Shown: one piece after another, positions 26,073 through 53,040 of the stretch
Layout of the letters: each line of letters starts with the position of its first letter
How positions within the stretch are numbered: the stretch's first letter is position 1
Assembly: GCA_023512255.1 (NCBI GenBank)
Contig: JAILZY010000009.1
Location: 1-64,000, forward strand
Direction: 5' to 3'
DNA from: a bacterium
GTDB taxonomy: Bacteria; SZUA-182; DTGQ01
Length of the DNA: 64,000 bases
The notes under the pieces: generated by a model
Told to the model about the DNA's origin: nothing
Database searches by the model: none
The model's input: the letters and a program-made list of their open reading frames with translations, nothing else
Translations under genes and position numbers: made by a program

Positions 26073-26201
26073 TTAATATTCGCTCTTATTTATTAGCTAC
26101 CATTGAGAGACATAACCCTAATAAAGAGCTAAGCCCATTCGAGGGTTTATGGTGTCTTGATATAGGGTTTATGGTGTCTGATATATAAGAGCGTTAATAT
26201 T
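26073..26201. mobile_element. MITE-like element, copy A (113 bp plus 8-bp target duplications)
   Basis: The element proper spans 26081-26193. It begins CGCTCTTATTTATTAG and ends in the matching inverted repeat ATATATAAGAGCG. Comparing the two ends over 23 bp gives about 19 matches. It is flanked on both sides by the perfect 8-bp direct repeat TTAATATT (26073-26080 and 26194-26201), as expected for a target-site duplication. It has no coding capacity. A second copy lies in the opposite orientation at 42789-42930. TIRs starting with GCTCTT and 8-bp duplications recall the ISL3 family, but that parentage is only a guess. It splits the tolC-macA junction. Confidence 0.88.
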
Positions 26202-26230
26202 ATAATTATCCTTAATTGCTATTAATTACC

Positions 26231-27694
26231 CTAATTATCCTTTATTAATTGCCCTGTGATTAATTGCCCTGTGGCCGTAACCATGGATCTGCCCAGCGCC
26301 TTGTGCACCCTGATCTTGGAGAGGGTATGGGCGATCAGTGCATCCAGCAGATTCAGCTCTGCGGTCCGCAGGTTATTTCTGGCATCTACCAGCTCTAGAT
26401 AACTGCTCGACCCTAGCGTGTATCGAAGCTCGGTAATCTTCAAGCTTTCCTTGGCCAGCTTGATGTTGTCCTCGGCAATTTGCACCCGCTCCTGGGCATT
26501 TTCAAAGTTCGTTAGCTCTCTTTTGATTTCAAGCTTAATTGAATCTATAGTTTCCTTGATATCGGCTTCGGCTTGCTCAAGATCAATAATGGCCTGAGTT
26601 TTCGACTCTCGAATAACGCCGCCATCAAAGATAAAAAGCGGCAGATTAAGACTTGTGGTTACTGACCAGCTTGGCTCATCAGGCCGCTGATCTATGGCTT
26701 CTGATACCCGAGTGCCTGAAACCTGATACCCCCATCCTGCCGATAAAGACCAGGTAGGCCGATACGGGTCAGAAGTGGATTTTAAAGCAATCCGGGCAGA
26801 CTCTAGCCTGAGCCGGGCGATTTCCATCTCAACTCGGCTCTTCAGGGCTTCTCTTTCAGCCTCCTCATAGGTAAAGGTTTCAGGAACATATTTTAATTCA
26901 GTTGTGGGCACAATCTCAAGCCCATGATCAAGTACCAGGGTATTCAGCAAGGCAGCTAAAGCATTGAGATAATCCCGCTCATCCCTCTTCAAGCTCTGTT
27001 TGGCATTGTTCAATTGGACGGTAGCAGTCATGACATCAACCTCTGGGGCTCTTCCCTTTTCTACTCTAGCTTTGGCGATCCGAAGCTGCTCTTCGGCCAT
27101 CTTCACCTGGGCCTGATCAATAGTAATGGTCTGCTGAAGCCGGATAAGTTCGTAGTATTGTTCACAGACGCTGACCACCAGATTCTGACAGGTCGTAATA
27201 TAGTTAGCCTTGCTGCTGCTCAGGGAAATTGAAGCCTGCTGGAGAGATCGGTCTATGCTTCCCGACAGATCCAAAGGCAGGCTAAAGTTAACCTCAACCC
27301 CACCCCGATAAGTGTTTTCTACCGAAGGATCCATATTTATTTGATTATATACGCTATAAGAGGTAGAAATATCGCCCGACAGCTTGGGTGAGCAGCCTGC
27401 TTTGGCCATCCGGTAGCTTGATTCGGCACTCAGGAGAGTCCTTTGGGCTGTCTTCAGGTCGCGGTTATTTTTAAAGGCAAGCTTTAGCGCCTCTTCAATC
27501 GACAAATGAATCTGCCGCTTCGGCAAATCCCCTTTCTCTTGTTGACCAAAGCCCATACCAGGGGATACTAAGAGTAGTATACCTACAAAGAAGATAACTA
27601 CGGCAGCTAATATAGACAGCCACAGGCTGAGAGAAAAACCCTCTATAGCCCTGTCTATAGCCCTTATAGCCCTGTCGATCGGTTTAATCTGCAA
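26231..27694 (-). CDS. TolC-like outer-membrane efflux channel
   Basis: This is an outer-membrane factor of the TolC family, the exit duct for the MacA/MacB-type exporter encoded just downstream. It has a signal sequence (hydrophobic stretch about residues 22-48), then two homologous repeats of coiled-coil and beta-strand segments. Typical family motifs include LSIEEALKLAFKNNRDLKT and LRYTLGSSSYLELVDARNN. The start is TTG at 27694 with AGGAGG 7 nt upstream. Both ends carry in-frame duplications: IDRAIRAIDRAIEG at the N-terminus and TGQLITGQLI at the C-terminus. The N-terminal 20 residues precede the hydrophobic region and are unusual for an exported protein. Confidence 0.9.
   Translation of the reverse strand: MQIKPIDRAIRAIDRAIEGFSLSLWLSILAAVVIFFVGILLLVSPGMGFGQQEKGDLPKRQIHLSIEEALKLAFKNNRDLKTAQRTLLSAESSYRMAKAGCSPKLSGDISTSYSVYNQINMDPSVENTYRGGVEVNFSLPLDLSGSIDRSLQQASISLSSSKANYITTCQNLVVSVCEQYYELIRLQQTITIDQAQVKMAEEQLRIAKARVEKGRAPEVDVMTATVQLNNAKQSLKRDERDYLNALAALLNTLVLDHGLEIVPTTELKYVPETFTYEEAEREALKSRVEMEIARLRLESARIALKSTSDPYRPTWSLSAGWGYQVSGTRVSEAIDQRPDEPSWSVTTSLNLPLFIFDGGVIRESKTQAIIDLEQAEADIKETIDSIKLEIKRELTNFENAQERVQIAEDNIKLAKESLKITELRYTLGSSSYLELVDARNNLRTAELNLLDALIAHTLSKIRVHKALGRSMVTATGQLITGQLIKDN
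26244..26273 (-). repeat. 15-bp perfect tandem duplication at the tolC-like 3' end
   Basis: ATTAATTGCCCTGTG occurs at 26244-26258 and 26259-26273. It is in frame and duplicates TGQLI in the protein. Weaker copies of the same sequence continue past the stop codon to about 26204. Confidence 0.95.
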
Positions 27695-28198
27695 GAATTA
27701 CCTCCTTGAGAGGGAGCAAGAATTACCTCTTTCGAGAGACTGCATAGAGAGAATACATAGAGAGACTCTCTAGAGACTGCATAGAAATATACTCTATAGA
27801 ATAAAATCCATAACAGAATAACATCCATAAGGTAGTGAAGTTATTAAGATTAATAAGGTTATATGAATCTAAATTTATTTAGTATTTTACAGTAATTAGT
27901 TAAAAATTTTTATCATTACTATTCTACCAGAAAGAAAATATCAAATCAAGCAAATTGTAATAAATTGCATTAATTTTAATTATGGAGATGAAATCAGGAA
28001 GCTCTTAGAAAAAAAGGCTGGACAAATTGCTCTACACTTCCTCCCCTTTTTTTGGCGAGAGAAGGAAGTGGAGAGAGTGATCTTATCAAGGAGCTTTTCC
28101 CTCAGGGGGAAATTTCAAAATATCCCCATTTTATAGCCTCAATTTTACTCGCCTAATTTCAATGGGTTTTCCAGGAAATCTAAAACTCAATGGTATTT
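27695..28198. other. Gene-free stretch with microduplications
   Basis: GCAAGAATTACCTC, which holds the complement of the tolC-like ribosome-binding site and start, occurs at 27691-27704 and again at 27716-27729. Beyond it, GAGAGACTGCATAGA-like units repeat between about 27734 and 27790. From about 27790 to 27990 the sequence is AT-rich and probably carries the promoter of the exporter operon. An imperfect hairpin (ACACTTCC and GGAAGTG) near 28032-28069 could end transcription of the minus-strand gene at 28199, although no T run follows. No gene was found. Confidence 0.55.
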
Positions 28199-29374
28199 TC
28201 AGCGAGTCGAAAGTTTCTGTAAGGAGGAGTGCCGCTGATTGGGTTTGACAGCCAGATTGGCTTTGATTGGTAAAACCTGCGGACGCTCCAGTGAGGCTTC
28301 TTGAGATGATAGCAGCTCGGTAACCTTTTTGGTCTTCAGGTCAATTAGGCAAATAATCCGTTTTTTGTCTTCCTTTCCTTTTCGCCGAGCGAAAATCAGC
28401 TTGGTTCCATCAGGCCACCAGGCAGGCTGAGCATCATCTGGGCCATCCGTTATCCGCTCAAGCCGCGATCCATCCGGGGTAAAGGTCCAGATGGTTTTAG
28501 TATCGGTGATCGGATCATGGCCGCGAAAAGCGATCCGATCCCCTTGAGGAGACCAGACCGTCTCATTGACAGCAAAGCCGCCGGGCAGTGGTTTGGTTAT
28601 GGTCTTGGTTTTAAGGTCCATGATCTTGGCTGTAGCTATCGGAAAGGCAAGTGGGAAGCCCTCGATCTTGAGCAGTTGGGTTTGGACAAAAGCGATCTTA
28701 GAGCCATCCGGCGACCAGCATGGAGTCAGCTGATCAACGTTGATTTTATCCTGAGTACCTGTGTTGTTTTTATCCTGAGTACCTGTCTGGGTATCTATCT
28801 GGGTATCTAAGATAGAGCGGTTTTGGCCATTTATATCCATAAGGTAAATACGCCAGGACGTATCGGCATTAGGATCTGCCAGCCGGGTACAGAAAGCCAA
28901 ACGCTTTCCATCCGGTGAGCAACTGGGATTACAATCAAGGGCTGAATTGTTTGAGATCTGGGTAACCTTTTTGCTGTCCAAATCCAGTTTGAAGATCTGA
29001 TACAACACTCGGCCTGTCTTGGGATCATCCACCGAATCTTCAAAGAAGACGCTCTTTCCATCAGGAGAAAAGCTGGGATTTTGAGCGAAAAAACTGTAGG
29101 TCAACTGTTGGATCTGCCCATCAGATCTGGCAAGATAAAGATTGATAGCCGCTGCGGTTTCGGCCTGGAATACAACCATGCACTCTGGAATGGTCGCATG
29201 AGAGACAATCTTTACGCTTTCCTTTGGCTTGGTAGGGGGGGCCGACCGAGAGACTATGTTTACACCGCTTTCTGGTTCGGCATGGAGTAGATGAAGCGGG
29301 GCCAGGGTAATTAGCAGGGAGAAAATTATCAGTGAAACGGTCCAACCTATCTTGGAAAATGTATGGCGAAGCAT
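28199..29374 (-). CDS. TolB-like beta-propeller protein (PD40 repeats), exported
   Basis: This exported beta-propeller resembles the C-terminal domain of TolB. A signal sequence (MLRHTFSKIGWTVSLIIFSL and on to about residue 33) is followed by at least five PD40/WD40-like blades. Each blade has the motif SPDGKxxxF or a variant (FSPDGKSVFFED, CSPDGKRLAFCT, WSPDGSKIAFVQ, WSPQGDRIAFRG, WWPDGTKLIFAR). The TolB N-terminal domain is absent, so it is not a standard TolB. The ATG at 29374 is preferred over an upstream one at 29416 because AAGGAGG lies about 11 nt before it. A low-complexity insert (DTQIDTQTGTQDKNNTGTQD) sits between blades three and four. Confidence 0.85.
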   Translation of the reverse strand: MLRHTFSKIGWTVSLIIFSLLITLAPLHLLHAEPESGVNIVSRSAPPTKPKESVKIVSHATIPECMVVFQAETAAAINLYLARSDGQIQQLTYSFFAQNPSFSPDGKSVFFEDSVDDPKTGRVLYQIFKLDLDSKKVTQISNNSALDCNPSCSPDGKRLAFCTRLADPNADTSWRIYLMDINGQNRSILDTQIDTQTGTQDKNNTGTQDKINVDQLTPCWSPDGSKIAFVQTQLLKIEGFPLAFPIATAKIMDLKTKTITKPLPGGFAVNETVWSPQGDRIAFRGHDPITDTKTIWTFTPDGSRLERITDGPDDAQPAWWPDGTKLIFARRKGKEDKKRIICLIDLKTKKVTELLSSQEASLERPQVLPIKANLAVKPNQRHSSLQKLSTR

Positions 29375-29394
29375 GAAAAATTTATCCTCCTTAA

Positions 29395-29434
29395 AATAAT
29401 AGAAGAACAAAGCCAATAATAGAAGAACAAAGCC
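29395..29434. repeat. 20-bp perfect tandem duplication in a 5' leader
   Basis: AATAATAGAAGAACAAAGCC occurs at 29395-29414 and 29415-29434, directly upstream of the ribosome-binding site of the TolB-like gene. A further short echo (GAAAGTATC and GAAAGTATT) follows at about 29435-29458. Confidence 0.95.
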
Positions 29435-29577
29435 GAAAGTATCAAATAGAAAGTATTTGATTATGATAATTATTATCTGTCTAATTGTTATCTGTCCAGA
29501 TTTAAGTTAGCAGTTAGATATTTAATTAGCAATCAATATCTAATTCAACCAGTACTTAATTCAGCCTCAGAATCAAA

Positions 29578-29615
29578 AGGAGGCGGGAAAGCCTTTCTTT
29601 ATCTCCCCGCCTCCT
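29578..29615. terminator. Intrinsic terminator downstream of the beta-helix gene
   Basis: The arms AGGAGGCGGG (29578-29587) and CCCGCCTCCT (29606-29615) pair perfectly over 10 bp with an 18-nt loop. Read on the minus strand, the stem is followed by TTTTGATT, which suits a terminator for the gene ending at 29656. The A-rich flank on the other side could support function in both directions. Confidence 0.8.
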
Positions 29616-29655
29616 AAAAATCAGCCCCTTTAAAAATTTTTTAATATAATCTTAA

Positions 29656-31812
29656 TCAATATGGCCAAACCCAGCTCGGATACAGCAGCCACGGCCACAT
29701 AAGGTTAGAATACAGTCGCCCGGCCACACCCGCCATCAAACCCGCCGGATAGAAGGATGGAATAATAGGAGAATAATAAATTGAGATCGGGGCTGGAATA
29801 GCAGCCGAAACAGGTCCATGGAAGTTGCTTACCCCATGGGTGTCTATATCTTCTAGGCGATAGAAGTAGGTAATCCCAGGTGCGGCTGTGGTATCAACAT
29901 AGGAATACTCTGCCTTCAGGGTAGCCCCACCCTCGGATGGGATAATCGCGGCATTGATCTTGGTGTATTCTCCGCTCTCTTTATTGCTGCGCCAGAGGTT
30001 GAATCCTGCGGTGTCGATCTCGCTCAGTGTGGTCCAGGATAGGATGATTTGTCCGCCTCCTGGGGTGGCAGTGAATTGATCTAGTTTAATCACATTAGGT
30101 CCTTCAGCCTCATAAGCCCCCATATCACTTGCCCACTTACCGTCATTATTTCCATCCATTGGCCTGGGTTGAGAATCTTTATCCTCAGCCACCGGCGGAT
30201 CAAGCCATCTCGCCAGATCAATGCAAGGAGAGCTAGCGCTTAGGCGGTAGTCACCCAAGTCAGGATCAACAAATTGTGGATCTCTATTGATATTGTGGTC
30301 CTCTGGATTACCATAGCCACCCTTGACGTCAGAGTAGGTAACATCAAGACCATTGCCAGATATTTCATCTGGCAAATTAAGCCAGATAATACTGTTTTTG
30401 ACAACTGCATTTGATAAGTAATTATAAATTGCTCCACCACTATTGCTGGAGGCGACATTTCCACTCATAGTACAATGGATCAATTCCAGCGGTGCGCTAT
30501 TATTATAATTGTAGATTCCACCACCTTCTCCTAACTGAGCCAAGTTGACCGCTAATACACAGTTGGTCAGGGTCATCGGAGATGAACTTTGTTGGCGATA
30601 GATCCCGCCGCCTTGCCCGCTTATAGCCTCATTATCTTTAATAGTACATTTGTCTATGGTGATTATCCCCGCCGTGGAACAATAAATTCCACCACCAGAA
30701 TTAAGAGCATGATTACGTTCGATAGCAGAGGCAGTGGCTTTCAATCTGGCGTTAGTCATGCAGGCAACCCCACCGCCATTAGTGGCCGAGTTGTTATTAA
30801 TCGTACATTTGATGAAATGTGGTGCAAAAGAGGAAGCTGCGCAATATATTCCACCACCATAGGATATTAAGGTCCCATTACTATTCTCAGCCGAATTATT
30901 ATTTATTGTTGTATCTTTAACTATAGTGGCTTTTGAGGGGAGATCAAAGAAATATATCCCTCCGCCTCGGCCAGAATTTCCACGATTTATTGTATCTGAA
31001 CTGGCCGTTGATGAATTATTACTAACCGTACAATTTCTGATGATCAGTGAAGATTTATCGCTATAAATTCCCCCACCGTTGCCAGTACTGATGCCAGAAT
31101 CGAATGGATTAAAGGGATCATCCACAGAGGGTATGGCCCTATTATTAGTAATAGTACAGTTTTCAATGGTCGCTACTGCCCGGAAGCAGGAAATTCCGCC
31201 GCCATTGCCAGCACTGGCTTCATTTCTTCCAACAATGCAGCCAGTAATGATTACTGGTGAAGCATTATATGAACAACAAATTCCACCCCCATCACCAGCC
31301 GTAGCTATATTATCGCTAATCGTACAGTTGGTAATTTTTGCTGAGGAGTCATTGCAATAAATCCCACCACCATTGGCAGCGCTATTATTTACAATGATAC
31401 AATTTTTAATCTCTGGCGAACACGACCAGCAACTAATTCCTCCCCCATTATCAACACCGGCATTTCCATTTTGGATAGTAAATCCATTAAGTACAGAATC
31501 TCCATAAAAAGTAACTGTGCTTCCCATATTACTACCATTAATAATTGTGGATGCCACTATCATAGGGTTATCGGGATTGGTACTTTGGACTGTTATAGAC
31601 TTATCGCCCCAGAAATACACATTCTCAAAATATGTCCCACTGCGAACAATAACTACATCCCTATCAGCGGCATTAAAAATGGCTTGGTTAATAGTTGGGT
31701 AGTTATCAGGTACATAGATAGTGTTTGCTTCCAGCCAAGATACATGGACTACCAATATTACCACCATGATCATGAAAACTAAGGCTATGCTGAGCGTTAA
31801 TCCTTTTTTCAT
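29656..31812 (-). CDS. Secreted right-handed beta-helix protein
   Basis: This is a 718-residue exported protein. A signal peptide (about residues 5-29) is followed by a long parallel beta-helix (about 30-520) built from repeats of the type CTISDNIATAGDGGGI and CTINNNSATNGGGV, as in pectate-lyase-like and polymorphic outer-membrane proteins. After it come a DUF1565/choice-of-anchor-like segment with DSQPRPMDGNNDGKWASDMG and a fibronectin-type domain (about 580-680; IILSWTTLSEIDTAGFNLWR). The tail is short and aromatic (LMWPWLLYPSWVWPY). No catalytic residues for a polysaccharide lyase could be assigned, so adhesion or surface binding is as likely. Confidence 0.83.
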   Translation of the reverse strand: MKKGLTLSIALVFMIMVVILVVHVSWLEANTIYVPDNYPTINQAIFNAADRDVVIVRSGTYFENVYFWGDKSITVQSTNPDNPMIVASTIINGSNMGSTVTFYGDSVLNGFTIQNGNAGVDNGGGISCWSCSPEIKNCIIVNNSAANGGGIYCNDSSAKITNCTISDNIATAGDGGGICCSYNASPVIITGCIVGRNEASAGNGGGISCFRAVATIENCTITNNRAIPSVDDPFNPFDSGISTGNGGGIYSDKSSLIIRNCTVSNNSSTASSDTINRGNSGRGGGIYFFDLPSKATIVKDTTINNNSAENSNGTLISYGGGIYCAASSFAPHFIKCTINNNSATNGGGVACMTNARLKATASAIERNHALNSGGGIYCSTAGIITIDKCTIKDNEAISGQGGGIYRQQSSSPMTLTNCVLAVNLAQLGEGGGIYNYNNSAPLELIHCTMSGNVASSNSGGAIYNYLSNAVVKNSIIWLNLPDEISGNGLDVTYSDVKGGYGNPEDHNINRDPQFVDPDLGDYRLSASSPCIDLARWLDPPVAEDKDSQPRPMDGNNDGKWASDMGAYEAEGPNVIKLDQFTATPGGGQIILSWTTLSEIDTAGFNLWRSNKESGEYTKINAAIIPSEGGATLKAEYSYVDTTAAPGITYFYRLEDIDTHGVSNFHGPVSAAIPAPISIYYSPIIPSFYPAGLMAGVAGRLYSNLMWPWLLYPSWVWPY

Positions 31813-32140
31813 GGTCTCTCCTTTTTATTATAATAAATTATATATAAATTAATCCTTATAACAGGTAATTTAACTATAAAAAATATACAAGCAAGCCGGC
31901 TTATATTTTTAAACTCACTCTCATATAGCAGACACCAAAATGGAGAACCGTGAAAGAAAGATTCTGTATTCTCATAACTTCATGAGAGTCTCTCTCTTTT
32001 GTTATTCTTTAAGCATGGCATCTAATAAAATTAAAATGAGAGCGGTTTGAACTTTTTGAACTCTATTTCCGCATATTTTTAACTGGAGTAAAAAATTTTA
32101 CAATTGAAACTACCCACGGGAACTTTATCGACTCAAAAAA
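31813..32140. other. Leader of the beta-helix gene, no gene found
   Basis: This gap is AT-rich next to the beta-helix start (31813-31900). It holds a small palindrome AAGCCGGCTT near 31893 and a short hairpin CTCAT-N6-ATGAG near 31970-31986. No ORF or RNA was recognised. The promoter of the beta-helix gene should lie here. Confidence 0.5.
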
Positions 32141-32195
32141 TGCCCCGGTGTAAGGATAAAAGCGGATTTTATTCTACTTCCTCCCCACCGGGGCA
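32141..32195 (-). terminator. Intrinsic terminator of the small secreted protein gene
   Basis: TGCCCCGGTG (32141-32150) and CACCGGGGCA (32186-32195) form a perfect 10-bp stem. Read on the minus strand, the stem is followed at once by TTTTTTGAG, the expected U tract. It lies 33 bp after the stop of the minus-strand gene ending at 32228. The loop of 35 nt is long for a terminator. Confidence 0.8.
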
Positions 32196-32227
32196 AGTTT
32201 ATGCATATAGCAGATTTATCCTAAAGC

Positions 32228-32641
32228 TTAGAAGGTAACCCAAGCCGAATTAGGATATACTGCAATATTGGCTGTACGGGTCCAAGTTTGACCAGGCCAA
32301 TCTATAGCGGGGAAACTAACAGGAGCTGAGGTTCCCGTAAACCTGATGTTTACTGTTCCAAATATTGTCATGGTCCAGTCAGCCGTAGCTACTACATTAG
32401 TAGCACCTGAGAAATTCTGGACTACCTTTTTTATTTGATAATATCCATTAGAGTTTGTAGTTGTGCTGCCAAAAATCTGGTTAACCTGAATACTCGCCCC
32501 TGGACAGACATAAGTATACTCCATAATATTGACTGTACCATTGATAGTAACCGTTCCCTGGACAGGCTGCTGTGCTGCGGCGATTCCTGTCATTACTACT
32601 ACTGCCAAAACCGAAATAATCAAGCTTGCAAACTTCTTCAT
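32228..32641 (-). CDS. Small secreted beta-sandwich protein (paralogue 1)
   Basis: This is a 137-residue exported protein with signal peptide (MKKFASLIISVLAVVVMTGI, cleavage near AAA at 23). The mature part, about 114 residues, has the pattern CPGASIQVNQIFGSTTTNSN followed by GYYQIKK. That resembles carboxypeptidase-regulatory or CnaB-like folds, in which a surface loop TxTNSxGxY is conserved. It is paralogous to the product of 32876-33400: both share MKKF-SLII, CPG-x-V, TTTNSNG and the GATxVxAxxxW segment. The two genes lie head to tail, which suggests a tandem duplication. Function is unknown. Confidence 0.8.
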   Translation of the reverse strand: MKKFASLIISVLAVVVMTGIAAAQQPVQGTVTINGTVNIMEYTYVCPGASIQVNQIFGSTTTNSNGYYQIKKVVQNFSGATNVVATADWTMTIFGTVNIRFTGTSAPVSFPAIDWPGQTWTRTANIAVYPNSAWVTF

Positions 32642-32875
32642 CGTCTTTCTCCTTAAAAATAGTTAATTAACTTTATATAAATAAAAATTAATAAATAATT
32701 AATAATTAATAATTACATAATACAATGCATGTCCTTACATACTTTAAAAGTTACATCACAACAAAAAGTTACAACGGGCCGTCTCGCTTCAATATTAACA
32801 CCTCCTTTCTTTTTTCTTCATAACAGAGAGAGTCTGTCATGAAGAGAGCTTTAAAGATTTTTTAAAAAAACTGAA

Positions 32876-33400
32876 TTAGTTCGAAATCCCTCTTAAAATC
32901 CCGTTTGTCGAAACAGAAGATGAAACAGTATCTATATCTACTACCGATTCTACTACCGGCTTTATTGAAATAAAATCTCCCGGCAGTGGAATATCCGCTA
33001 TACAGGTATAGATTGGGCTTGGCCATTGACTTATTGGAGGATAGTAAACAGGCGCTGATTCTCCATGAAAGTGAAGATTGATTTGCATATCGCATGGACG
33101 AAAAGGGAATTGAAGTGTAAGATCCCAATTCCCTATAGCTACCACCGTAGCACCTGGGAAATCAGGCCCTACCTTCTTTTTTGCTATATAGTCTCCGTTG
33201 GAGTTCGTAGTTGTGGGTTCAAAAAGCTGAGAAAACTTTACGTTCACCCCTGGGCAGGTGTATGCATACTGGGGATGGTTACCAATATATACCTTACCTT
33301 TTATAATAGCTGTTCCTTCAACTGTTTTTATCTGGGCTGTTGCTATTCTTGCTATAGTCAATATCGAAAATAAAATAATTAAGCTTATAAATTTTTTCAT
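32876..33400 (-). CDS. Small secreted beta-sandwich protein (paralogue 2)
   Basis: This is a 174-residue exported protein with signal peptide (about residues 1-22) and the same CPG-x-V and TTTNSNGDYIAKK core as its neighbour at 32228-32641. It has an extra C-terminal stretch of about 35 residues rich in Val, Ser and Ile. It is the first gene of the pair. A 12-bp hairpin lies in the gap between the two (32816-32844). A long AT-rich leader and the palindrome pair at 33914-33950 lie upstream, as for the secreted protein at 11848-12570. No function is known. Confidence 0.8.
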   Translation of the reverse strand: MKKFISLIILFSILTIARIATAQIKTVEGTAIIKGKVYIGNHPQYAYTCPGVNVKFSQLFEPTTTNSNGDYIAKKKVGPDFPGATVVAIGNWDLTLQFPFRPCDMQINLHFHGESAPVYYPPISQWPSPIYTCIADIPLPGDFISIKPVVESVVDIDTVSSSVSTNGILRGISN

Positions 33401-33913
33401 GGCTTTCTTCTTTCTTATATTATATTAAGTATAATATTAATAAATTTAAGTTACTTCTATATTTTGTAATTTATTTTAAAATTTTTGATTTTATTTGATT
33501 TATATGAAAAATAATTTTTAATAAATTTTTTAAAAATTATAGTTTACCTAAATGTAAGTTATTTTAAATTAATAAATTAACATTAATTTATATAGATTAC
33601 ATTCTCTATGCAAATAATATTTTGCAAAATATATGTCATATATAAATTTTATTTTTTATAAAAATATGATATTTAAAATAATTCATTGTTTTATATTAAA
33701 CTACTCATCATAATTTAGATATCCACTATGTTTTTAAGTAATAATGATAATATTTAATTCTTACTGATATATAGTTTTTTTATTTTTAATAATAAAAAAT
33801 CAATACAAATTTTATATTTACTGATAAAATAATTTAATAGATTTAATTTCAAATAAATTTAAATAATTTATTTATTATATCAATAATAATTAATTAATTT
33901 TAAATATTTAATT
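33401..33913. other. AT-rich leader without genes
   Basis: About 500 bp of extremely AT-rich sequence with many overlapping runs such as TTTTAAAAATT and ATATAAATTTTA. No ORF, RNA or clear promoter could be set apart from the background. It resembles the leader at 12630-12799 in composition and in lying between a secreted protein gene and the palindrome pair. Confidence 0.6.
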
Positions 33914-33950
33914 ATGAAATTTATTTCATATCATATGAAACATATTTCAT
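33914..33950. promoter_or_regulatory. Paired palindromes ATGAAA-N4-TTTCAT, 21 bp apart (copy 2)
   Basis: ATGAAATTTATTTCAT (33914-33929) and ATGAAACATATTTCAT (33935-33950) start exactly 21 bp apart, as at 12800-12836. The four-base spacers differ between all four palindromes while the ATGAAA and TTTCAT arms are invariant, which is the pattern expected of protein-binding half sites. The pair lies about 510 bp upstream of the paralogous secreted protein genes. Confidence 0.6.
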
Positions 33951-34335
33951 AGTGCCTATGGCTACTAAGCTATTCCGTTTTTAAAATTATGAAGATAACT
34001 ACATTAAATGAGAATTCCCAAGGTATGCAATGTAATTCACACTGATATAGTCTATGCCCTGCTAGTCAATATCAGGCGCCATGCTAGTAAATAGCTGGCG
34101 AAAAGAAGACAACGAAAAGAAGGCAAAGGCAAAGTAAGGCAAATAAAATAAAGTCATATATGCCGTCAGACATGCCGCAAGATATAATCCAATAAAAAAG
34201 TATTCATGGATTCAGGGAAGTATTGATTATTGATTTAGGAGTAAGAGTTAGGTATAATAAAAAAATTAAAAAATCTGGCGAACATGAGATGGAATTCTCA
34301 GAGGGATCTAAAAATTCTAGTCAACCCCTTCGCAT

Positions 34336-34772
34336 CCTTACTGACATGGTTGGTTCATACTCGGCGATCTTGACCTGGCTGTCTTTCGCCCCTTGCTTGC
34401 TCCTTCGCTCCTGGCTTGGCTCCTGGCTTTGCTCTTTCGCTCCTGGCTTTGCTATTCGCTCTTTGACTTATGCGGTTTTGCTCGCCATTTCGGCGATCCT
34501 GTGGCCTGCTCGCGGACTTCGCTCTTTACTGATGTGGGTGGCCTGCTGGCGGACTTTACTCCTTACTGACATGGTTGGTTCATGCTCGGCGATCTTGACC
34601 TGGTGTCCTTCGCTCCTGGCTGTCTTTCGCCCCTGGCTTGCTCCTTCGCTCCTGGCTTGGCTCCTGGCTTTGCTCTTTCGCCCCTGGCTTGCTCCTTTGC
34701 TCCTGGCTTGGCTCCTGGCTTTGCTCTTTCGCTCCTGGCTTTGCTATTCGCTCTTTGACTTATGCGGTTTTG
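34336..34772. repeat. Nested direct repeats, probably non-coding
   Basis: A segment at 34336-34482 recurs at 34561-34772. The leading 43 bp match with a single mismatch (34336-34378 and 34561-34603). The second copy has gained an internal duplication of about 46 bp built of GCTCCTGGCTTGGCTCCTGG units. A third layer, a tandem pair of about 37 bp (GGCCTGCTNGCGGACTT), lies at about 34512-34570. The composition is strongly C/T-biased on this strand. Frames through it (for example 34223-34786) translate into Leu/Ser/Trp-rich repeats without a recognisable domain. The remaining flanks (33951-34335 and 34773-34985) show nothing definite. Confidence 0.85.
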
Positions 34773-34985
34773 CTTTTCACCACTGAAAAGCGATCTGCTC
34801 TTCACCGGGAACGCTTCATTTAACGTTTTGGTAAAAATATTTTTTTTCATTAAAAAAATAATATCTTATTATAAATATTGGAATAAAATCGAAAGCTAAG
34901 CCGAATAATCGAGCCCATATTTTTTACCAGCTATTCCGAATAAGCATCGTGAAAGGATTCCCCGAAAGATATTTGGACCAAAGCG

Positions 34986-36005
34986 ATGAAATTTCTAAAA
35001 GGGTATGGAAGAATTCTTGGTAAGGGCGCGATACCATTTATTGGCCTGACGGTTTTGGTACTTTTTATCATTCATATCTATGGTGCTCTGAGAATGCCTC
35101 TCTCCTTTGTCCCACCTGAGGGGAAGATTATTGAGATCAAAAAGGGGATGCCGATCAGCGAGATTTCTCTTCTTCTCAAGAAGGAGAAGATTATTCGTGA
35201 AGCTTGGCTTTTTAAACTGCTGACCAGGATAAAATATGGTACGCTGATCAAAGCTGGAGAATATCGGCTAACTCCGGCCATCAATCTACTCCAGCTTTTT
35301 GATATACTTCAGCATGGCAAATCGATCTGTCATCGGGTAACGATTCCGGAAGGATACACTATCCGGCAGATTGCGGCCATATTGGCTGATCATGGTTTGG
35401 CTGATCGGGAAAAATTTATTAAGGCGGCCAATGATCCCGCTTTGGCCAGAAAGCTAGGTATCCAGGCCGAGAGTCTAGAAGGGTATCTTTTTCCCGATAC
35501 CTATTATTTTACTAAGGGGGTGTCTGAAAAGGTGATCATTGAGGCTATGGTCTTGCGGTTTAACCAGATCATTCCCAAGGAGTGGAAAGTGCGCTCCCGT
35601 GAGATGGGATTTGATTTCCATCAGATCGTTACCTTGGCCTCACTGATTGAGAAAGAGACTTCCCGGCTGGAAGAAAAACCGCTTATTTCGGCTGCCTATC
35701 ACAATCGGCTGCGGGACGGGATGCGCTTGCAGTGTGATCCGACCGTGATCTACTCGCTGGCTAGCTTTAGCGGAAATCTGACCAAGGAGCACCTGTCGAT
35801 TGATTCTCCTTATAATACCTATCGTGTCTATGGTCTGCCCCCTGGTCCGATTGCCAATCCGGGGAAAGACTCAATCCAGGCGGCCTTATATCCTGTCAAG
35901 ATTGGCTATCGCTATTTTGTCTCAAAAAACGATGGGACACATCACTTCTCTTATACCTTGGAAGAACATAATCGAGCTGTAGAAAAATATCAAAAGCGGA
36001 GGTAG
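34986..36005 (+). CDS. mltG: Endolytic murein transglycosylase MltG
   Basis: MltG (YceG family) cleaves nascent glycan strands and sets their length. It is anchored by one N-terminal membrane helix (about residues 16-36). A LysM-like subdomain (about 50-100, [16 protein letters not shown]) precedes the catalytic domain. The catalytic glutamate is in [15 protein letters not shown] near residue 221, and the C-terminal motif [18 protein letters not shown] is characteristic. The length of 339 residues is normal. The hisG gene starts 4 nt after the stop, so the two are probably co-transcribed although functionally unrelated. Confidence 0.95.
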
Positions 36006-36009
36006 TTTC

Positions 36010-36879
36010 ATGAAGTTACGAATTGGCATTCCGAAAGGGAGCTTACAGGAGGCGACCATTGCCCTGTTTCGAAAGGCGGGATATCATATTTCGGTAAGTC
36101 ATAGATCATATTATCCGCTCATCAATGATTATCAGATGGAAGCTATGCTTATCCGAGCCCAGGAGATGGCCATTTATGTTGAAAATGGGGTTCTGGATGC
36201 CGGTTTAACTGGCAAAGATTGGATTTTGGAGCAAGGCGCCGATGTACATGAGGTTGCCGAGTTGGTGTACGGCAAGGAGGGGCTAGCGCCGGTTAAATGG
36301 GTTTTGGCTGTGCCGAATGATTCCCCTATCCAGAGCGTCAAGGATCTTGAAGGCAAGAGAATCTCCACAGAGCTGGTCAATTTTACCAAAAATTATCTTC
36401 GGAAAGCAGGGGTCAGGGCTGAGGTTATGTTTTCCTGGGGAGCTACGGAGATCAAGGCGCCGACTCTGGCTGATGCCATTGTTGAGTTGACCGAGACCGG
36501 CAGCACGCTGCGGGCCAATAATCTTAGGATCGTAGAAACTTTGATGGAATCGACAACACGGCTGATTGCCAATAAAACTGCCTGGAAAAACAACTGGAAA
36601 CGGGAGAAGATTGAAAATCTAGCCTGCTTGCTGAAAGGATCGCTCCTGGCCGAAGAAAAGGTTGGCCTTAAGATGAACATTACTCAGAAAAACTTAGACC
36701 GCATTGTCGCTCTGCTGCCGGCCATGCACACCCCGACCATATCGCCTCTGGTGGACAAGGATTGGGTAGCCCTCGAAGTGGTCATTGATGAAAAGGTTGT
36801 GCGAGACATCATCCCGGAGCTGAAAAAAGCGGGAGCTACTGGAATTGTGGAATATCCTTTAAACAAAGTGATCCCATAA
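36010..36879 (+). CDS. hisG: ATP phosphoribosyltransferase, long form
   Basis: HisG joins ATP and PRPP in the first step of histidine synthesis. The N-terminal motif [16 protein letters not shown] and the PRPP loop segment [15 protein letters not shown] are present. The protein has 289 residues with a C-terminal regulatory domain (about 215-289, [18 protein letters not shown]). It is therefore the long, hexameric, histidine-inhibited form that does not need HisZ. GGAGG lies 8 nt before the ATG. No other histidine genes are in the window. Confidence 0.95.
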
Positions 36880-36893
36880 GATTAGTAAAAGCC

Positions 36894-38825
36894 ATGCGAG
36901 AGAAGATACTTATTGCTGAGAGCAATCCAAGATTTTTGGGGAAACTTTCGACCATTCTAATTCAAAATAATTACCAGGTCATTGCTGCCTCAAAACCAAA
37001 TGAAATACTCGATCGTCTAAAGGAGGATTCTCCCGATCTTCTTATGTGGAGCTATTCTGTTCCCTGTTTGGATAATCCTGATCTGCTCAGAGAGATTCGC
37101 CAGAATCATGAGAATATATCTATTGTTTTTTTGGTCAATCAGGAAAATGAAGCTAGGCTAAGAGACCTCAGCGGCGATGGAGTGGATGACTATCTCGTTG
37201 AGCCATTTGATGATTTACAGGTTCTGACCACGGTCAGCAATGCCCTGAAGTTTCGCCAGATCAAACTTCGGAACAAAATGATCTGTCAGGAATTGGTTAA
37301 TGCCAACCAGAGGCTGTCCATCAAGACTCGGCAGTTTCAGGAACTGGTGGATTTCCACAACAGCATCCTGGAAAATATCAATGTTGGTATCTTTACCATC
37401 GACTCCCGATTTAAGGTAACGAGCTGGAACAAAAAGATTCAGGAGTTGACCGGCATATGTCGCGAGGATGCGGTGGACAAAAATATTTTTTCCCTGATCC
37501 CGGTTTTACGTGAGGATAACCTCCATCAGCGGATATCTCAAGTTGTCCAGCATGGCGGGACCACCGAGCTTGGCCATATTTATAGTCTAAACCCGCAGGG
37601 TGAGCAGGTGTGCTGTGCCTATAAGATTTCACCCATCCGCAAGAGCGGAGAGATTCTGGGAGCAGTTTTCCTGGTGGATGATATTACTCAGAAGATCAAT
37701 CTCCAGCAGGAGCTTAACAAAACTCAGCGGTACTTAAGTCACTTGGTGGAGAACTCCACCGATGCCATCATCAGCTTTGATCTGGACGGGGTAATCGTTA
37801 CCTGGAACCAGGGAGCAGAGGCCATTTATGGATACTCTGATCGAGAAGCTATCGGTAGGAAGTGGGATATTCTTGTCCCTGCGCATCTCCATGATCAGGT
37901 AGCTCACCTTTTCAAATGGGTGAAAGAGAGTGGTTCGGTCAAAAACCTGGAACTTTCGATGATCAACCGCAAGGGGAAAGAAATTCCGGTTACTATGAGC
38001 CTGTCTCTGATCAAGGATCCTCATGGTAACATCTTCGGCTTATCCTGTATTTCCAGGGATCAGTCTGAAAAGCGCGACCTTCAGAATCAGCTCATTCATA
38101 CCCAGAAGATGGCTTCACTTGGAAAGATGGCTGCTGGGATGGCTCATGACATTAATAATCCACTCTCTTCGATCCTTGCCTATGCCGAGCTGCTGGTCAA
38201 TAAGACAGAGAAAATCGGTTTTACCGAGCTTACGGAACATCTGCTGCAGGTTGAAGAGGATGTGGGGCGGATCAGCAGTATGATCAGAAAAATGATCTGG
38301 TACTCCAAGCCTTCTCCTCCACAACTTGGCCAGGCTAATATAAACGAGCTCTTGGACAGAGCCGTAGAATTTGCCAATTTTCAAACCCCTCTGCGGGGCA
38401 TCAAGGTGGTCCGCCAGTATGACCAGAACCTGCCAGAGACCTTAGTTGATGCCAAAGCACTGGTTCAGGCCTTTGTCAATCTCATTACCAATGCCGTAAA
38501 AGCTATGCCGAATAATGAGGGGACCTTGACGCTCACCACCTCTCATCGGACTAAAACGATCCACGGAGTTGATGAAATTCTGATCATGATCGCTGACACG
38601 GGCATTGGTATTCCTGAAGAAAACCTTGGCAAGATATTTCAATACTGCTTCACCACTGGCGAGAGCACCGGTAAGGGAAACGGCCTTGGGCTCTATGTGG
38701 TCAGGGCCATTGTTGAAGAAAGTGGCGGTAAGATCAGTGTCCAAAGTAAGGTACATGAAGGGACTACCTTTACCATAACCCTGCCCATAAAGACTGATGT
38801 TAAACCTAATCCCTTTCTTCAATAG
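36894..38825 (+). CDS. Hybrid sensor kinase: degenerate receiver, two PAS domains, HisKA and HATPase
   Basis: This soluble two-component protein begins with a receiver-like domain (about residues 1-120). Two PAS domains (about 160-285 and 285-400) follow, then the dimerisation/phosphoacceptor domain with His418 in GMAHDINNPLSSILAYAE, and a HATPase_c domain (NLITNAVKAM, ADTGIGIPEENLG, GKGNGLGLYVV). In the receiver the stretch DLLMWSYSVP aligns with the usual DLVLLDxxMP, so the phosphoacceptor Asp is replaced by Ser. The domain may sense ligands or partners rather than accept phosphate. It lacks membrane segments. No cognate response regulator lies next to it, and hisG is 14 nt upstream. Confidence 0.9.
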   Translation: MREKILIAESNPRFLGKLSTILIQNNYQVIAASKPNEILDRLKEDSPDLLMWSYSVPCLDNPDLLREIRQNHENISIVFLVNQENEARLRDLSGDGVDDYLVEPFDDLQVLTTVSNALKFRQIKLRNKMICQELVNANQRLSIKTRQFQELVDFHNSILENINVGIFTIDSRFKVTSWNKKIQELTGICREDAVDKNIFSLIPVLREDNLHQRISQVVQHGGTTELGHIYSLNPQGEQVCCAYKISPIRKSGEILGAVFLVDDITQKINLQQELNKTQRYLSHLVENSTDAIISFDLDGVIVTWNQGAEAIYGYSDREAIGRKWDILVPAHLHDQVAHLFKWVKESGSVKNLELSMINRKGKEIPVTMSLSLIKDPHGNIFGLSCISRDQSEKRDLQNQLIHTQKMASLGKMAAGMAHDINNPLSSILAYAELLVNKTEKIGFTELTEHLLQVEEDVGRISSMIRKMIWYSKPSPPQLGQANINELLDRAVEFANFQTPLRGIKVVRQYDQNLPETLVDAKALVQAFVNLITNAVKAMPNNEGTLTLTTSHRTKTIHGVDEILIMIADTGIGIPEENLGKIFQYCFTTGESTGKGNGLGLYVVRAIVEESGGKISVQSKVHEGTTFTITLPIKTDVKPNPFLQ

Positions 38826-38942
38826 TCGCTTTGTTAGCCGAGGGGGCAGTGGGAAAGAGCAGTAACTATAAACCATGCGGCTACCACAGAGAGCACAGGG
38901 CCAGAGGCAAATCTGGCCACTGCCAGATGAGAAGAGACAAAA

Positions 38943-38970
38943 ATCGAGTATAAATTATCGAGTATAAATT
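38943..38970. repeat. 14-bp perfect tandem duplication upstream of dapL
   Basis: ATCGAGTATAAATT occurs at 38943-38956 and 38957-38970, 18 bp before the dapL start codon. The same gap (38826-38988) holds a perfect 7-bp hairpin ATCTGGC-CACT-GCCAGAT at 38911-38928 without a T run. Confidence 0.95.
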
Positions 38971-38988
38971 TTTGAGGATACCTGCTAT

Positions 38989-40155
38989 ATGAAGATAACC
39001 ATTGCTGAGAGGCTGAATCAGCTTCCCCCTTATCTTTTTGCCAAAATTGATGCTTTAAAAGCTCAAGCTATAAGAGATGGAGTAGATATTATTGATCTTG
39101 GAATTGGAGACCCTGACCAGCCGACCCCTCTCCGTATTAGGGAGAGGATGAGAGAGGCGGTTGAGGATAGAGCTAATCATCGCTATCCATCTTATCAGGG
39201 TCTGCGTGAATTCAGAGAGGCTGTAGCTAGGTGGTATCAGAGGAGATTCGGCGTTAATCTTGATCCTGAAACCGAAGTGCTCTCACTGATTGGGTCCAAG
39301 GAAGGCATTGCCCATATTCCGTTAGCTTTTCTCAATCCTGGCGATATTTGCCTTGTCCCTGACCCCGGCTATCCTGTCTATCAGGCCGGAACTACCCTGG
39401 CTGGCGGTCTGGTTCATCGACTCCCCCTTTTGCCAGAGAAGCGGTTTCTCCCTGATTTAGCCCAAATCTCTGACCCTGCAGTACTGTCAAAGGCTAGGCT
39501 GCTATTCATTAACTATCCAAACAATCCTACCGCAGCCACGGCAGAGCCTGAGTTTTTCCGCCAGGTAGTTGACTTTGCCCGAGAACACAATATCATTGTC
39601 TGCCATGACAATGCTTATTCAGAAATTACTTTCGATGGCTATCAGGCTCCAAGCTTCCTTCAGATAGAGGGAGCCAAGGAGGTAGGAGTTGAGTTTCATT
39701 CTCTCTCTAAGACTTATAACATGACTGGATGGCGGATCGGTTTTGTTGTTGGTAACGCTGAGATCATTGCTGCCTTGGGCAAGGTTAAAACTAATATCGA
39801 TTCGGGCATCTTTCAGGCGGTCCAGAGGGCTGGTATCGAAGCCTTGAATATGGATCAGGAATGTGTCCGCGAAATGTGTAGACTCTATCAGGACCGTCGC
39901 GATGTCCTCTGCCAGGGGCTTGAATCTCTTGGGCTTAGGGTAGAAAGACCAAAAGCGACTTTTTATCTTTGGATTAAGGTCCCAGACGGGATTACCTCGG
40001 AAGCCTTTACCCTGCGGCTTCTCAGGGAGGCTGGGATTATCTGCACCCCAGGCACTGGATTTGGCGCCTGGGGAGAGGGATTTATCCGCATGGCTTTGAC
40101 TATCCCCAAAGAGAGAATGGCCGAGGCTGTAGACCGGATCAGAAAGATTCTGTGA
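38989..40155 (+). CDS. dapL: LL-diaminopimelate aminotransferase
   Basis: DapL converts tetrahydrodipicolinate directly to LL-diaminopimelate with glutamate as amino donor, bypassing the acylated intermediates of the lysine/peptidoglycan pathway. The protein is a class I/II PLP aminotransferase of 388 residues with the DapL signatures LGIGDPDQPTP near residue 38 and HSLSKTYNMTGWRIGF with the PLP lysine at 241. NYPNNPTAA is the PLP-binding Asn region. It may share a message with folK, which begins 79 nt downstream. A close alternative is another aspartate-family aminotransferase, but the GDPDQPT start is distinctive. Confidence 0.88.
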   Translation: MKITIAERLNQLPPYLFAKIDALKAQAIRDGVDIIDLGIGDPDQPTPLRIRERMREAVEDRANHRYPSYQGLREFREAVARWYQRRFGVNLDPETEVLSLIGSKEGIAHIPLAFLNPGDICLVPDPGYPVYQAGTTLAGGLVHRLPLLPEKRFLPDLAQISDPAVLSKARLLFINYPNNPTAATAEPEFFRQVVDFAREHNIIVCHDNAYSEITFDGYQAPSFLQIEGAKEVGVEFHSLSKTYNMTGWRIGFVVGNAEIIAALGKVKTNIDSGIFQAVQRAGIEALNMDQECVREMCRLYQDRRDVLCQGLESLGLRVERPKATFYLWIKVPDGITSEAFTLRLLREAGIICTPGTGFGAWGEGFIRMALTIPKERMAEAVDRIRKIL

Positions 40156-40233
40156 AAATATTCCGCGAGTAGTTTTAGGCGCCTTAAAAAGAGACTACTT
40201 TAACCTTTTGAGTAAAGCCGTGGAGTAAAACTT

Positions 40234-40737
40234 ATGGCCACAGAAGCTTATCTGGGGCTTGGATCAAATCTCGGCTCCCGGATTCTAAACTGCTATCGGG
40301 CCATCTATCAACTTCATCATTCAGGCTCTGTGGCTTTGGTTGAGCGATCCTCGTTCTATGAAACCGAACCCTATGGGTATGAGGAGCAGAACAGGTTCAT
40401 CAACCTGGTTCTGAAAATCAGAACCGATCTCTCCCCGCAGGCATTGCTCTGCCTGACTCAAAGTGTGGAAAAAAGCTTGGGCAGGGAGGTAAGTTTCAGG
40501 TGGGGGCCAAGGGTTATTGATATTGACCTTCTCCTTTTTGGAGATGAGCAGATAGAGGAAGAAGGTCTGGTTATTCCTCATCCTCAGCTGCACCTTCGCC
40601 GGTTTGTTCTCTATCCCCTGGCTGAGATCGCCCCAGATCTTAGACATCCAGCGCTTGGTAAAACCATAAGCGAGCTTCTCCAAACCTGTCCAGACCGAAA
40701 GGAGGTTAGAAACCTTGAGCCTAGAGGAAAGCGCTAA
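40234..40737 (+). CDS. folK: 6-hydroxymethyl-dihydropterin pyrophosphokinase
   Basis: FolK pyrophosphorylates 6-hydroxymethyl-7,8-dihydropterin in folate synthesis. The start AYLGLGSNLGSR and the catalytic segment WGPRVIDIDLLLFG followed by IPHPQLHLRRFVLYPLAEI are the family hallmarks. The length of 167 residues is normal. The last 35 bp, including the stop codon, are part of a 53-bp sequence that occurs again at 41743-41795, where it supplies the ribosome-binding site and first codons of panB. In the inferred ancestral order folK and panB overlapped. Confidence 0.95.
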   Translation: MATEAYLGLGSNLGSRILNCYRAIYQLHHSGSVALVERSSFYETEPYGYEEQNRFINLVLKIRTDLSPQALLCLTQSVEKSLGREVSFRWGPRVIDIDLLLFGDEQIEEEGLVIPHPQLHLRRFVLYPLAEIAPDLRHPALGKTISELLQTCPDRKEVRNLEPRGKR

Positions 40738-40738
40738 G
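40686..40738 (+). repeat. 53-bp direct repeat, copy 1 (folK 3' end)
   Basis: This stretch, from CTGTCC to GCGCTAAG, matches 41743-41795 with one mismatch (A at 40692, C at 41749). Within it AAAGGAGG followed 9 nt later by TTG mimics a panB start that dies after ten codons (MSLEESAKRR and stop). Confidence 0.95.
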
Positions 40739-40842
40739 CGGAGGTAAAGCCACCTTTTGGGGAAGTTTTGCATGTGCTCTCTCTTGCGATACAGTATAAA
40801 ATAGTATAGAATCGATAAATAAGAGGAACGAGTAAGGTCGCT

Positions 40843-41445
40843 ATGGATTTGGTATCAAATGGAATTATAATTGTACTTAAATATCTTCTCCCTGGTTTTG
40901 TATCTGCATGGATTTTTTATGGCCTTACTGCCTGGCAAAAGCCACCTGAATTTGAACGAGTAATTCAAGCTTTTATTTTCAACATGTTTGTTCAGGTTCT
41001 GGTCATCTTTACTTCCTGGACATTTTTTCTATTTGGCAAATATGTCCATAGTTTTGGCTCTTGGACAGCAAATGTTTCTTTATTTTGGTCTCTCATAGTT
41101 GCAATTCTTTTTGGTTTGGCGGTTTCATATTTTGCTAATAATGATACGATACACGCTTTTTTAAGAAGAAAAAATATTACCCAGCAGACATCGTATCCTT
41201 CCGAGTGGTTCGGAGCGTTTCGACAGAATAAAACTTACGTTGTCTTGAACCTCAAGGGCGAACGGAGGCTTTATGGTTGACCCTTGGAGTGGCCAGCTCA
41301 GCCGCATAATGGCTATTTTTCAATTATGGAAGCAGAATGGTTAGATGGAGAAAAAAGAATACCGTTGGAAAATGTTACCAACATTCTTGTTCCAGCAAGT
41401 GAGGTAGTATTTGTTGAATTTGTAGCCTCAAAAGATGATCATTAG
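40843..41445 (+). pseudogene. DUF6338-like membrane protein interrupted by an in-frame TGA
   Basis: The frame from ATG 40843 runs to TAG 41443-41445 (200 codons) with one internal TGA at 41278-41280. The segments LPGFVSAWIFYGLT, FERVIQAFIF, SYPSEWFGAF and YVVLNLKGERRLYG match what I recall of the DUF6338 family, in which the next residue is Trp (YGWP). The TGA thus replaces a TGG codon by one transition. The downstream part (PLEWPAQPHNGYFS, then EAEWLDGEKRIPLENV) is still well conserved, so the mutation is recent or is read through. Three membrane helices precede a soluble C-terminal domain. TGA is used as stop by other genes here. Function is unknown. Confidence 0.82.
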
Positions 41446-41463
41446 AAGCCTATCTTTTGAGAA

Positions 41464-41628
41464 ATGGATAAGGGTAAAAAAATGGGCCGTAAAGAACCGC
41501 AACCACCGCCTGGTAAACCTATACCATATTCCGATTACGGACGGAAGGAAATTATAAGAGAAGGTATTACCCCCAAAGCGATGAATATTGTCAAGCCGCC
41601 GCCGCCACCGCCACCGCCGAAGCGATAA
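41464..41628 (+). CDS. Small proline-rich protein (54 aa)
   Basis: ATG at 41464 opens a 54-codon frame ending TAA at 41626-41628. The product is basic and proline-rich, with PQPPPGKPIPYSDYGRKE in the middle and eight consecutive prolines before the final KR. An alternative start, ATG at 41482, gives 48 residues. It follows the DUF6338-like frame after 18 nt inside the same cassette, so the two probably form a pair. No family was recognised. Proline-rich tails of this type can act as short linear binding motifs, which is only a guess here. Confidence 0.6.
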   Translation: MDKGKKMGRKEPQPPPGKPIPYSDYGRKEIIREGITPKAMNIVKPPPPPPPPKR

Positions 41629-41742
41629 GACGGCAAGCTGAGATCAAGGTGGATATAAGTCTTTACTTGTAGACCTGCCTAGTTGCAGCCAGGCTTGTCT
41701 GGTGCAGAGCTAGGCAGATAGGAAGTTCATCCACAATCACAT

Positions 41743-41795
41743 CTGTCCCGACCGAAAGGAGGTTAGAAACCTTGAGCCTAGAGGAAAGCGCTAAG
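41743..41795 (+). repeat. 53-bp direct repeat, copy 2 (panB 5' end)
   Basis: This copy provides AAAGGAGG (41755-41762) and the TTG start of panB at 41772. The interval between copies (40739-41742, 1004 bp) is the inserted cassette. Just inside its right edge an 8-bp hairpin, CTGCCTAG (41675-41682) and CTAGGCAG (41710-41717), encloses further partial pairing. Confidence 0.95.
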
Positions 41796-42590
41796 GTAAC
41801 CATCCCCGGCTTAAAGCAGATGAAGCAGGATGGGCGGAAGATCACCATGCTCACCGCCTATGACTATCCGACGGCTGTCTTGCTGGACAAAGCTGGGATA
41901 GATATTCTGCTGGTAGGAGATTCCCTTGGCATGGTGGTGCTTGGTTATGAAAATACTCTGCCTGTAACCATGGACGAGATGCTCCATCATACCAAAGCAG
42001 TGAAGAGAGGCTGCAAGCGAGGGCTGATTGTGGGTGATATGCCCTTTTTGTCCTTCAATGTGGATAGCACCCAGACCATTGAAAATGCAGGCCGATTTAT
42101 CAAAGAAGGAGGTGCTGAGGCGGTCAAGCTAGAAGGGGCCACAGAGCCTGTCTTGCGAACTATCCGGTGTCTAGTGGAAGCAGGCATTGCGGTCATGGGG
42201 CATATCGGCTTGACCCCGCAACTGGTGCACCAGATGGGCGGGTTCAAGGTTCAAGGAAGAGAAAAGGAGAGCGCTGAGCTTCTGATCGAGGGAGCTGGAA
42301 AACTCGAAGATGCAGGCGCTTTCGCCCTGGTCCTTGAGGGAATCCCGGCAGACCTTGCCCGAATCATTACCCAAAAGCTCTCTATTCCTACGATAGGTAT
42401 TGGAGCCGGGCCGCACTGCGACGGTCAGGTCCTGGTTACCCATGATCTGCTTGGGCTCTCAGGTGCTCCAAAGCCAAAATTCGTCAAGCAGTACGCTTCC
42501 CTGCACCCCTTGATTCTATCAGCCCTTAGCTCTTTTCGCCAGGAGGTGCTGGAGGGGAAATTCCCCACCGATGAGTATAGCTACCACTGA
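41772..42590 (+). CDS. panB: 3-methyl-2-oxobutanoate hydroxymethyltransferase
   Basis: PanB transfers a hydroxymethyl group to alpha-ketoisovalerate to make ketopantoate, the first step to pantothenate and coenzyme A. Family motifs are ITMLTAYDYPTAVLLDKAG, LVGDSLGMVVLGYENTLPV, GHIGLTPQLVHQMGGFKVQG and IPTIGIGAGPHCDGQVLV. The length of 272 residues is typical. The start is TTG with AAAGGAGG 9 nt upstream, an excellent site that compensates for the weak codon. No panC or panD gene follows. Confidence 0.95.
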   Translation: MSLEESAKVTIPGLKQMKQDGRKITMLTAYDYPTAVLLDKAGIDILLVGDSLGMVVLGYENTLPVTMDEMLHHTKAVKRGCKRGLIVGDMPFLSFNVDSTQTIENAGRFIKEGGAEAVKLEGATEPVLRTIRCLVEAGIAVMGHIGLTPQLVHQMGGFKVQGREKESAELLIEGAGKLEDAGAFALVLEGIPADLARIITQKLSIPTIGIGAGPHCDGQVLVTHDLLGLSGAPKPKFVKQYASLHPLILSALSSFRQEVLEGKFPTDEYSYH

Positions 42591-42780
42591 TTAAGTAATT
42601 CGCCTCATGTCTATCATTCGTGAACACCGACTATCACTCGTGAACACTGAAATCACAATAATCTTATATCTTCTACACTTTTGCAGAAATTTCTTATCGC
42701 CTTGAAATCCTTGAAAGTTACCTCTAATAGCAAATCCAGTAAAATCAAGGCGTTGGAGAAAAAGTGCAAAAGCATAAATA
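42591..42780. repeat. Gene-free stretch: tandem pair and nested inverted repeat
   Basis: Two 20-bp units (CTATCAYTCGTGAACACYGA) lie at 42611-42630 and 42631-42650 with two mismatches. A nested inverted repeat follows: TTTTGCA (42679-42685) pairs with TGCAAAA (42765-42771), and inside it CGCCTTGA (42698-42705) pairs with TCAAGGCG (42745-42752). The latter could fold when transcribed and may end the panB message, although a clear U tract is missing. No gene was found. Confidence 0.7.
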
Positions 42781-42938
42781 TCTTGATTCGCTTTATATAT
42801 CAGATACCATAAACCCTATATCAGAACAACCATAAAATATCAGAACAACCATAAATCCTCGAAGGGGCTTAGAAGGGGCTTAGCTCTTATTAGGGTTATG
42901 TCTCTCAATGGTAGCTAATAAATAAGAGCGTCTTGATT
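42781..42938. mobile_element. MITE-like element, copy B (142 bp plus 8-bp target duplications)
   Basis: The element proper spans 42789-42930 and is the reverse complement of copy A at 26081-26193. It starts CGCTTTATATATCAGA and ends TAATAAATAAGAGCG. Perfect 8-bp direct repeats TCTTGATT flank it (42781-42788 and 42931-42938). Compared with copy A it has gained a 19-bp tandem duplication (42818-42836 and 42837-42855) and an 11-bp one (42861-42871 and 42872-42882). It has no coding capacity. Confidence 0.9.
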
Positions 42939-53038: not shown

Positions 53039-53040
53039 AC

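Follow-up and report, generated by a model that had tools for sequence, protein, structure and literature searches.

The 64,000-nucleotide stretch of DNA analysed here, referred to as the window, carries two short elements, copies A and B, which are non-autonomous transposable elements (MITEs) that were inserted independently of each other. They belong to a high-copy MITE family that is very probably moved by an IS1595-family transposase supplied in trans. The elements are short and lack a transposase ORF, and the family has the terminal inverted repeats, target duplications, empty sites, and partner element with matching ends that characterize MITEs. A single genome provides both a MITE burst and its likely partner. 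More than 100 insertions have target sites that can be read, these sites define a sharp, symmetric motif for a transposase of the IS1595 type, and empty sites are recognizable without a second strain. A family assignment that was based on end sequence alone is also corrected.

Copies A and B and their neighbours

The relevant features of the window are as follows.

24738–26024, minus strand: HlyD/MacA-like membrane fusion protein (PF16576, PF13437), downstream neighbour of copy A
26073–26080, no strand: left target-site duplication of copy A, TTAATATT (direct reading)
26081–26193, plus strand: copy A, a 113-bp MITE with its left end at 26081–26103 and its right end at 26171–26193
26194–26201, no strand: right target-site duplication of copy A, TTAATATT (direct reading)
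26231–27694, minus strand: outer membrane efflux protein (TolC-like; PF02321), upstream neighbour of copy A
31916–32044, minus strand: older relative (second subfamily), with CGCTCTCAT/CACTCTCAT ends and a different interior
41772–42590, plus strand: ketopantoate hydroxymethyltransferase (PanB; PF02548), neighbour of copy B
42781–42788, no strand: target-site duplication of copy B, TCTTGATT (direct reading)
42789–42930, minus strand: copy B, a 142-bp MITE with an internal duplication, its right end at 42789–42810 and an intact left end at 42908–42930
42931–42938, no strand: target-site duplication of copy B, TCTTGATT (direct reading)

An earlier note on this DNA had described both elements, each between perfect 8-bp duplications and without an ORF; direct reading of the sequence recovers the two elements and both duplications at these positions, and no ORF of 80 aa is present in either copy. 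Copy A is the full 113-bp unit, diverging by 2.7% from the family consensus, and its 23-bp ends are inverted matches of each other at 19 of 23 positions. Copy B consists of the 113-bp unit plus about 29 bp of internal duplications, in which TTTATGGTTGTTCTGATA and CTAAGCCCCTT are each repeated; it is 5.4% divergent from the consensus when the extra bases are excluded, and its right end (from 42789) has a 1-bp deletion near the tip and one substitution. The older relative at 31916–32044 is bordered by the nearly duplicated flanks TTTAAACT and TTTGAACT, and its ends are nearer to those of the IS1595-family insertion sequence described below than the MITE ends are.

Family size and sequence variation

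The genome searched is an assembly of 3.83 Mb in 172 contigs (G000). An element search returned at least 40 strong matches. Patterns for the two ends, allowing at most one mismatch, located 97 left ends and 92 right ends, and the reversed patterns used as a control had no match. The stretches around every listed end (about 0.5 Mb) were read, yielding 93 complete copies (copy B included) together with approximately 20 ends cut at contig edges, for a genome-wide total of roughly 105–115 copies. The search for further copies that the earlier note proposed was productive, and its description of a two-copy family holds for the window alone and not for the genome. Approximately 20 contig ends stop inside MITE copies, which explains part of the assembly fragmentation.

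The copies have a median divergence of 2.7% from the 113-bp consensus and only two pairs are identical. Their lengths range from 70 to 132 bp among those read, with copy B at 142 bp, and a shorter form of 90 bp is present about eight times, flanked by target duplications of its own, indicating that deleted forms have also moved. The left end of the MITE is CGCTCTTATTTATTAGCTACCAT and the right end is CGCTCTTATATATCAGACACCAT, and the spacer between them is short and nearly self-complementary.

Target-site duplications and empty sites

The octamers flanking the elements are perfect duplications in 62 of the 93 complete copies and differ at one base in 15 more; when copy B is left out, 61 of 92 copies with both flanks carry identical octamers. 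Randomly paired flanks give identical octamers in about 1% of cases, so chance is excluded. Only the 8-bp length is enriched, and there are no duplications of 9–12 bp. Insertion sites follow the symmetric motif W-A-N6-T-W: the first base of the duplication is A in 82% and the eighth is T in 85% of cases, and both outer neighbouring positions are A or T in 98–100%.

Empty sites are available for about nine insertions, where the MITE sits inside another dispersed repeat and a paralogue of that repeat without the insertion has a single octamer. For example, the interrupted locus L133 and the empty locus L048 agree at all 29 bases spanning the junction, and further pairs are formed by L042 and L048, and by L031 with both L082 and L093. 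Two of the empty sites lie within the window, at 42781–42664 (paired with L078) and at 53050–52949 (paired with L039). Exact 8-bp duplications together with empty sites show that these elements transposed, and the earlier claim that the different duplications around A and B reflect independent transposition is thereby upheld. The comparison of empty sites that had been suggested for sister strains was achieved with paralogues within one genome. Homologues of macA in the congener, sought for an interspecies empty-site test, are only about 27% identical, and the exact site of copy A is therefore not comparable between species. We note that L042 and L133 have a MITE at the same TTTTGATT octamer in two copies of one dispersed repeat, which reflects either two parallel insertions or duplication of the repeat with the MITE already in it.

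The probable partner insertion sequence

Members of the ISL3 family also generate 8-bp duplications and terminate in GGCTCTT-like sequences, and the GCTCTT-like ends and 8-bp duplications of the MITE had led the earlier note to liken it to that family. The DDE_Tnp_ISL3 profile has no match in the genome, although the same model finds matches in four control genomes. Moreover, the genome contains an IS1595-family element with the same ends, and CGCTCTT is also the terminus of the IS1595 member ISH4. We thus regard mobilization by an ISL3-family transposase as extremely improbable, and the ISL3 assignment is replaced by one to IS1595.

The DDE IS1595 profile identifies one gene in the genome (G000:C83:20925-21410), and the end pattern independently located a MITE-like right end at C83:20773, 150 bp from this gene. 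Gene and end are parts of a 1096-bp insertion sequence of the IS1595 family, G000:C83:20773-21868. Its right end, CGCTCTCATATATCAGACACCA, and the right end of the MITE are the same at 21 of 22 bp, and its left end, CGCTCTCAATTTATTAGACGCCAT, agrees with the MITE left end over CGCTCT-ATTTATTAG. The ends correspond in orientation, with the MITE left end having four mismatches to the left and six to the right end of the insertion sequence, and the MITE right end two mismatches to the right and four to the left. The similarity is confined to the ends, and the MITE interior has no match in the insertion sequence; interiors of prokaryotic MITEs usually do not match the partner element, according to PMC3852290. 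The earlier expectation that a transposase acts from elsewhere, and that a search might reveal an autonomous-type element sharing the MITE ends, is supported by this element, which is of the IS1595 type and has an interrupted gene.

The transposase frame has 343 codons and is split by one in-frame TAG. The two frame halves encode a zinc ribbon and a DDE domain, matching the models Zn_ribbon_IS1595 (PF12760, 4e-7), DDE_Tnp_IS1595 (PF12762, 5e-21), and NF033547 (1.7e-20); the NF033547 cut-off is 75 bits and each half alone falls below it. Among named genomes, the relatives of the transposase are only 28–43% identical. Among copies of the insertion sequence, the one complete example is not bordered by identical octamers; the 8-bp duplications are seen at the MITE copies.

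The ends, CGCTCT(C/T)AT, and the 1096-bp length fit ISH4, but among plasmid matches ISH4 is not the nearest to the transposase. In annotated plasmid records, ISH4 of Halobacterium has direct repeat flanks and CGCTCTT at both ends, and the IS1595 members ISAba36 and ISEc75 start with GGGGCTG. The ends of the insertion sequence therefore appear, from their sequence, to resemble the ISH4 group.

Three other loci were considered and set aside, two of them as candidate partners. Of these two, the IS1595 transposase at L147 in the congener G001 has no CGCTCT end of that genome nearby, and that at L145 in G002 has ends of the GGGGGTAGTCGG type. L139, in which the left end is followed by a different interior, was considered as a longer element, and this interior consists of ordinary genes. 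L139 also holds a 256-aa ORF (L139:2058-2828) made of tandem 'LDKKIDETAKQ' coiled-coil repeats, adjoining a type II secretion-like gene pair. A further IS1595-type left end, CGCTCTCATTTATTAGACGCCATCG, is present at L160 (G000:C101:12694-12806), where a different interior begins after about 40 bp and is cut by the contig end; this could be a second insertion-sequence variant.

The similarity of the ends suggests how the family would have spread. The MITE may be viewed as little more than the pair of ends that the transposase of an IS1595-family insertion sequence recognizes, joined by a short spacer, such that a transposase made elsewhere in the genome would bind both ends and move the fragment. 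Insertion at staggered cuts in AT-rich W-A-N6-T-W sites would then give the 8-bp duplication. That the IS1595 transposase binds the MITE and mobilizes it in trans is inferred from these sequence relationships.

No intact transposase gene was seen in the assembly, and TAG is an ordinary stop in this genome (56 of 231 long ORFs), so the copy on C83 is probably inactive. It is quite possible, if somewhat short of probable, that the family is now dead, in that an intact IS1595 element once dispersed it and has left only a broken transposase gene, and the interrupted frame, the divergence among MITE copies, and the near absence of identical pairs are consistent with this. However, the insertion sequence has at least one further copy (on C97), 98.6% identical over 212 bp and cut by the contig edge, and because multi-copy insertion sequences are easily lost from fragmented assemblies, an intact copy may exist.

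Positions relative to genes

On a simple ORF map, the coding fraction is 79% and 60% of W-A-N6-T-W sites are within ORFs, yet none of the 85 scorable MITE copies is inside an ORF, indicating that genic insertions have been removed or avoided. Of these, 63 are between genes of the same direction, with element orientation relative to the genes divided 39 to 24. The tolC-like and macA-like genes on the minus strand are 206 bp apart with copy A between them; subtracting the 121 bases that were inserted or duplicated leaves 85 bp.

This intergenic placement, together with the long hairpin into which copy A folds on either strand (z-scores −5.9 and −5.1), might be taken to indicate a REP/BIME- or RNA-like dispersed hairpin that is kept for a cellular function and has spread by duplication without transposition. 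We consider this very unlikely: it is at odds with the exact target duplications and the empty sites, and the hairpin itself follows from the inverted ends. The transcript folding proposed in the earlier note gives a good structure for copy A but not for copy B, which folds no better than shuffled sequences (z-scores −1.7 and −0.9). Rfam and tRNA scans of the window gave no match, there is no terminator-like site, and the orientations of the elements follow no fixed rule relative to the genes. These observations favour the transposed MITE family. An effect of copy A on the co-transcription of tolC and macA, either polar or stabilising, is possible but unsupported: no terminator-like site was seen, and promoter-like sites are no more numerous than in shuffled sequence. 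It is also improbable that some of the MITE hairpins now serve as transcript-processing or attenuation elements tuning operons such as tolC-macAB; if this were so, the burst would have seeded more than 100 near-identical hairpins into gaps between co-directional genes, some of them regulatory.

Other dispersed repeats

Several other repeats were noted in the course of reading these loci. Directly adjoining copy B is a second dispersed repeat (42664–42781), intergenic and about 105 bp long, which is present in at least 21 more places in the fetched loci; it has imperfect inverted ends, CTATGCTTTTGCACTTTTTC ... GAAATTTCTGCAAAAGTGTAG, and looks like another MITE. A third, of about 95 bp (52949–53050; AAGTGGTCTTTTCGCTAACAAAGTGCGCAAGC ... 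GCACTTGTGT), is present in approximately 34 more places in the fetched loci. Two smaller families of dispersed repeats themselves host MITE insertions, one at L048, L057, L117, L133, and L042 and the other at L031, L049, L082, L093, and L114, the latter with the ends CCGACCATAA ... TTATGG(C/T)TGGTCG.

Distribution among genomes

The full 113-bp MITE is absent from 59 other genomes, a congener among them. This congener, G001, has nine CGCTCT(C)AT-type ends, which are on other elements, including one of 100-odd bp with nearly duplicated flanks. There are no CGCTCT-type ends in the two other members of the taxonomic family and the one member of the order that were searched, and the end pattern was not found in viral contigs. 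The end type is thus shared within the genus, with the 113-bp burst confined to one species among the genomes searched, and we infer that the burst postdates the split of this species from the sequenced congener.

Comparison with known systems

A MITE with an IS1595 partner is already known in Haloquadratum walsbyi, and the family described here is new and much more abundant. The H. walsbyi MITE is linked to ISHwa6 (IS1595 family) and is 165 bp long with 7 copies and a direct repeat of 8 bp (Kamoun et al. 2013, PMC3852290). Compared by description, the two share an IS1595 partner, 8-bp direct repeats, and the lack of an ORF, with 25-bp inverted ends in H. walsbyi; they differ in that the latter is archaeal, with 7 copies of 165 bp versus more than 100 copies of 113 bp here. 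ISH4 of Halobacterium salinarum resembles the insertion sequence in having CGCTCTT ends, a length of about 1 kb, a direct repeat, and one IS1595-family transposase, but it is autonomous, its transposase is about 35% identical over 89 residues to that of the element here, and the rest of the end sequence differs. The Chunjie MITE of Geobacter and the Correia elements of Neisseria are likewise high-copy, size-variable, and mostly intergenic prokaryotic MITEs (PMC10969869), but have other sequences and are not tied to IS1595 in that review.
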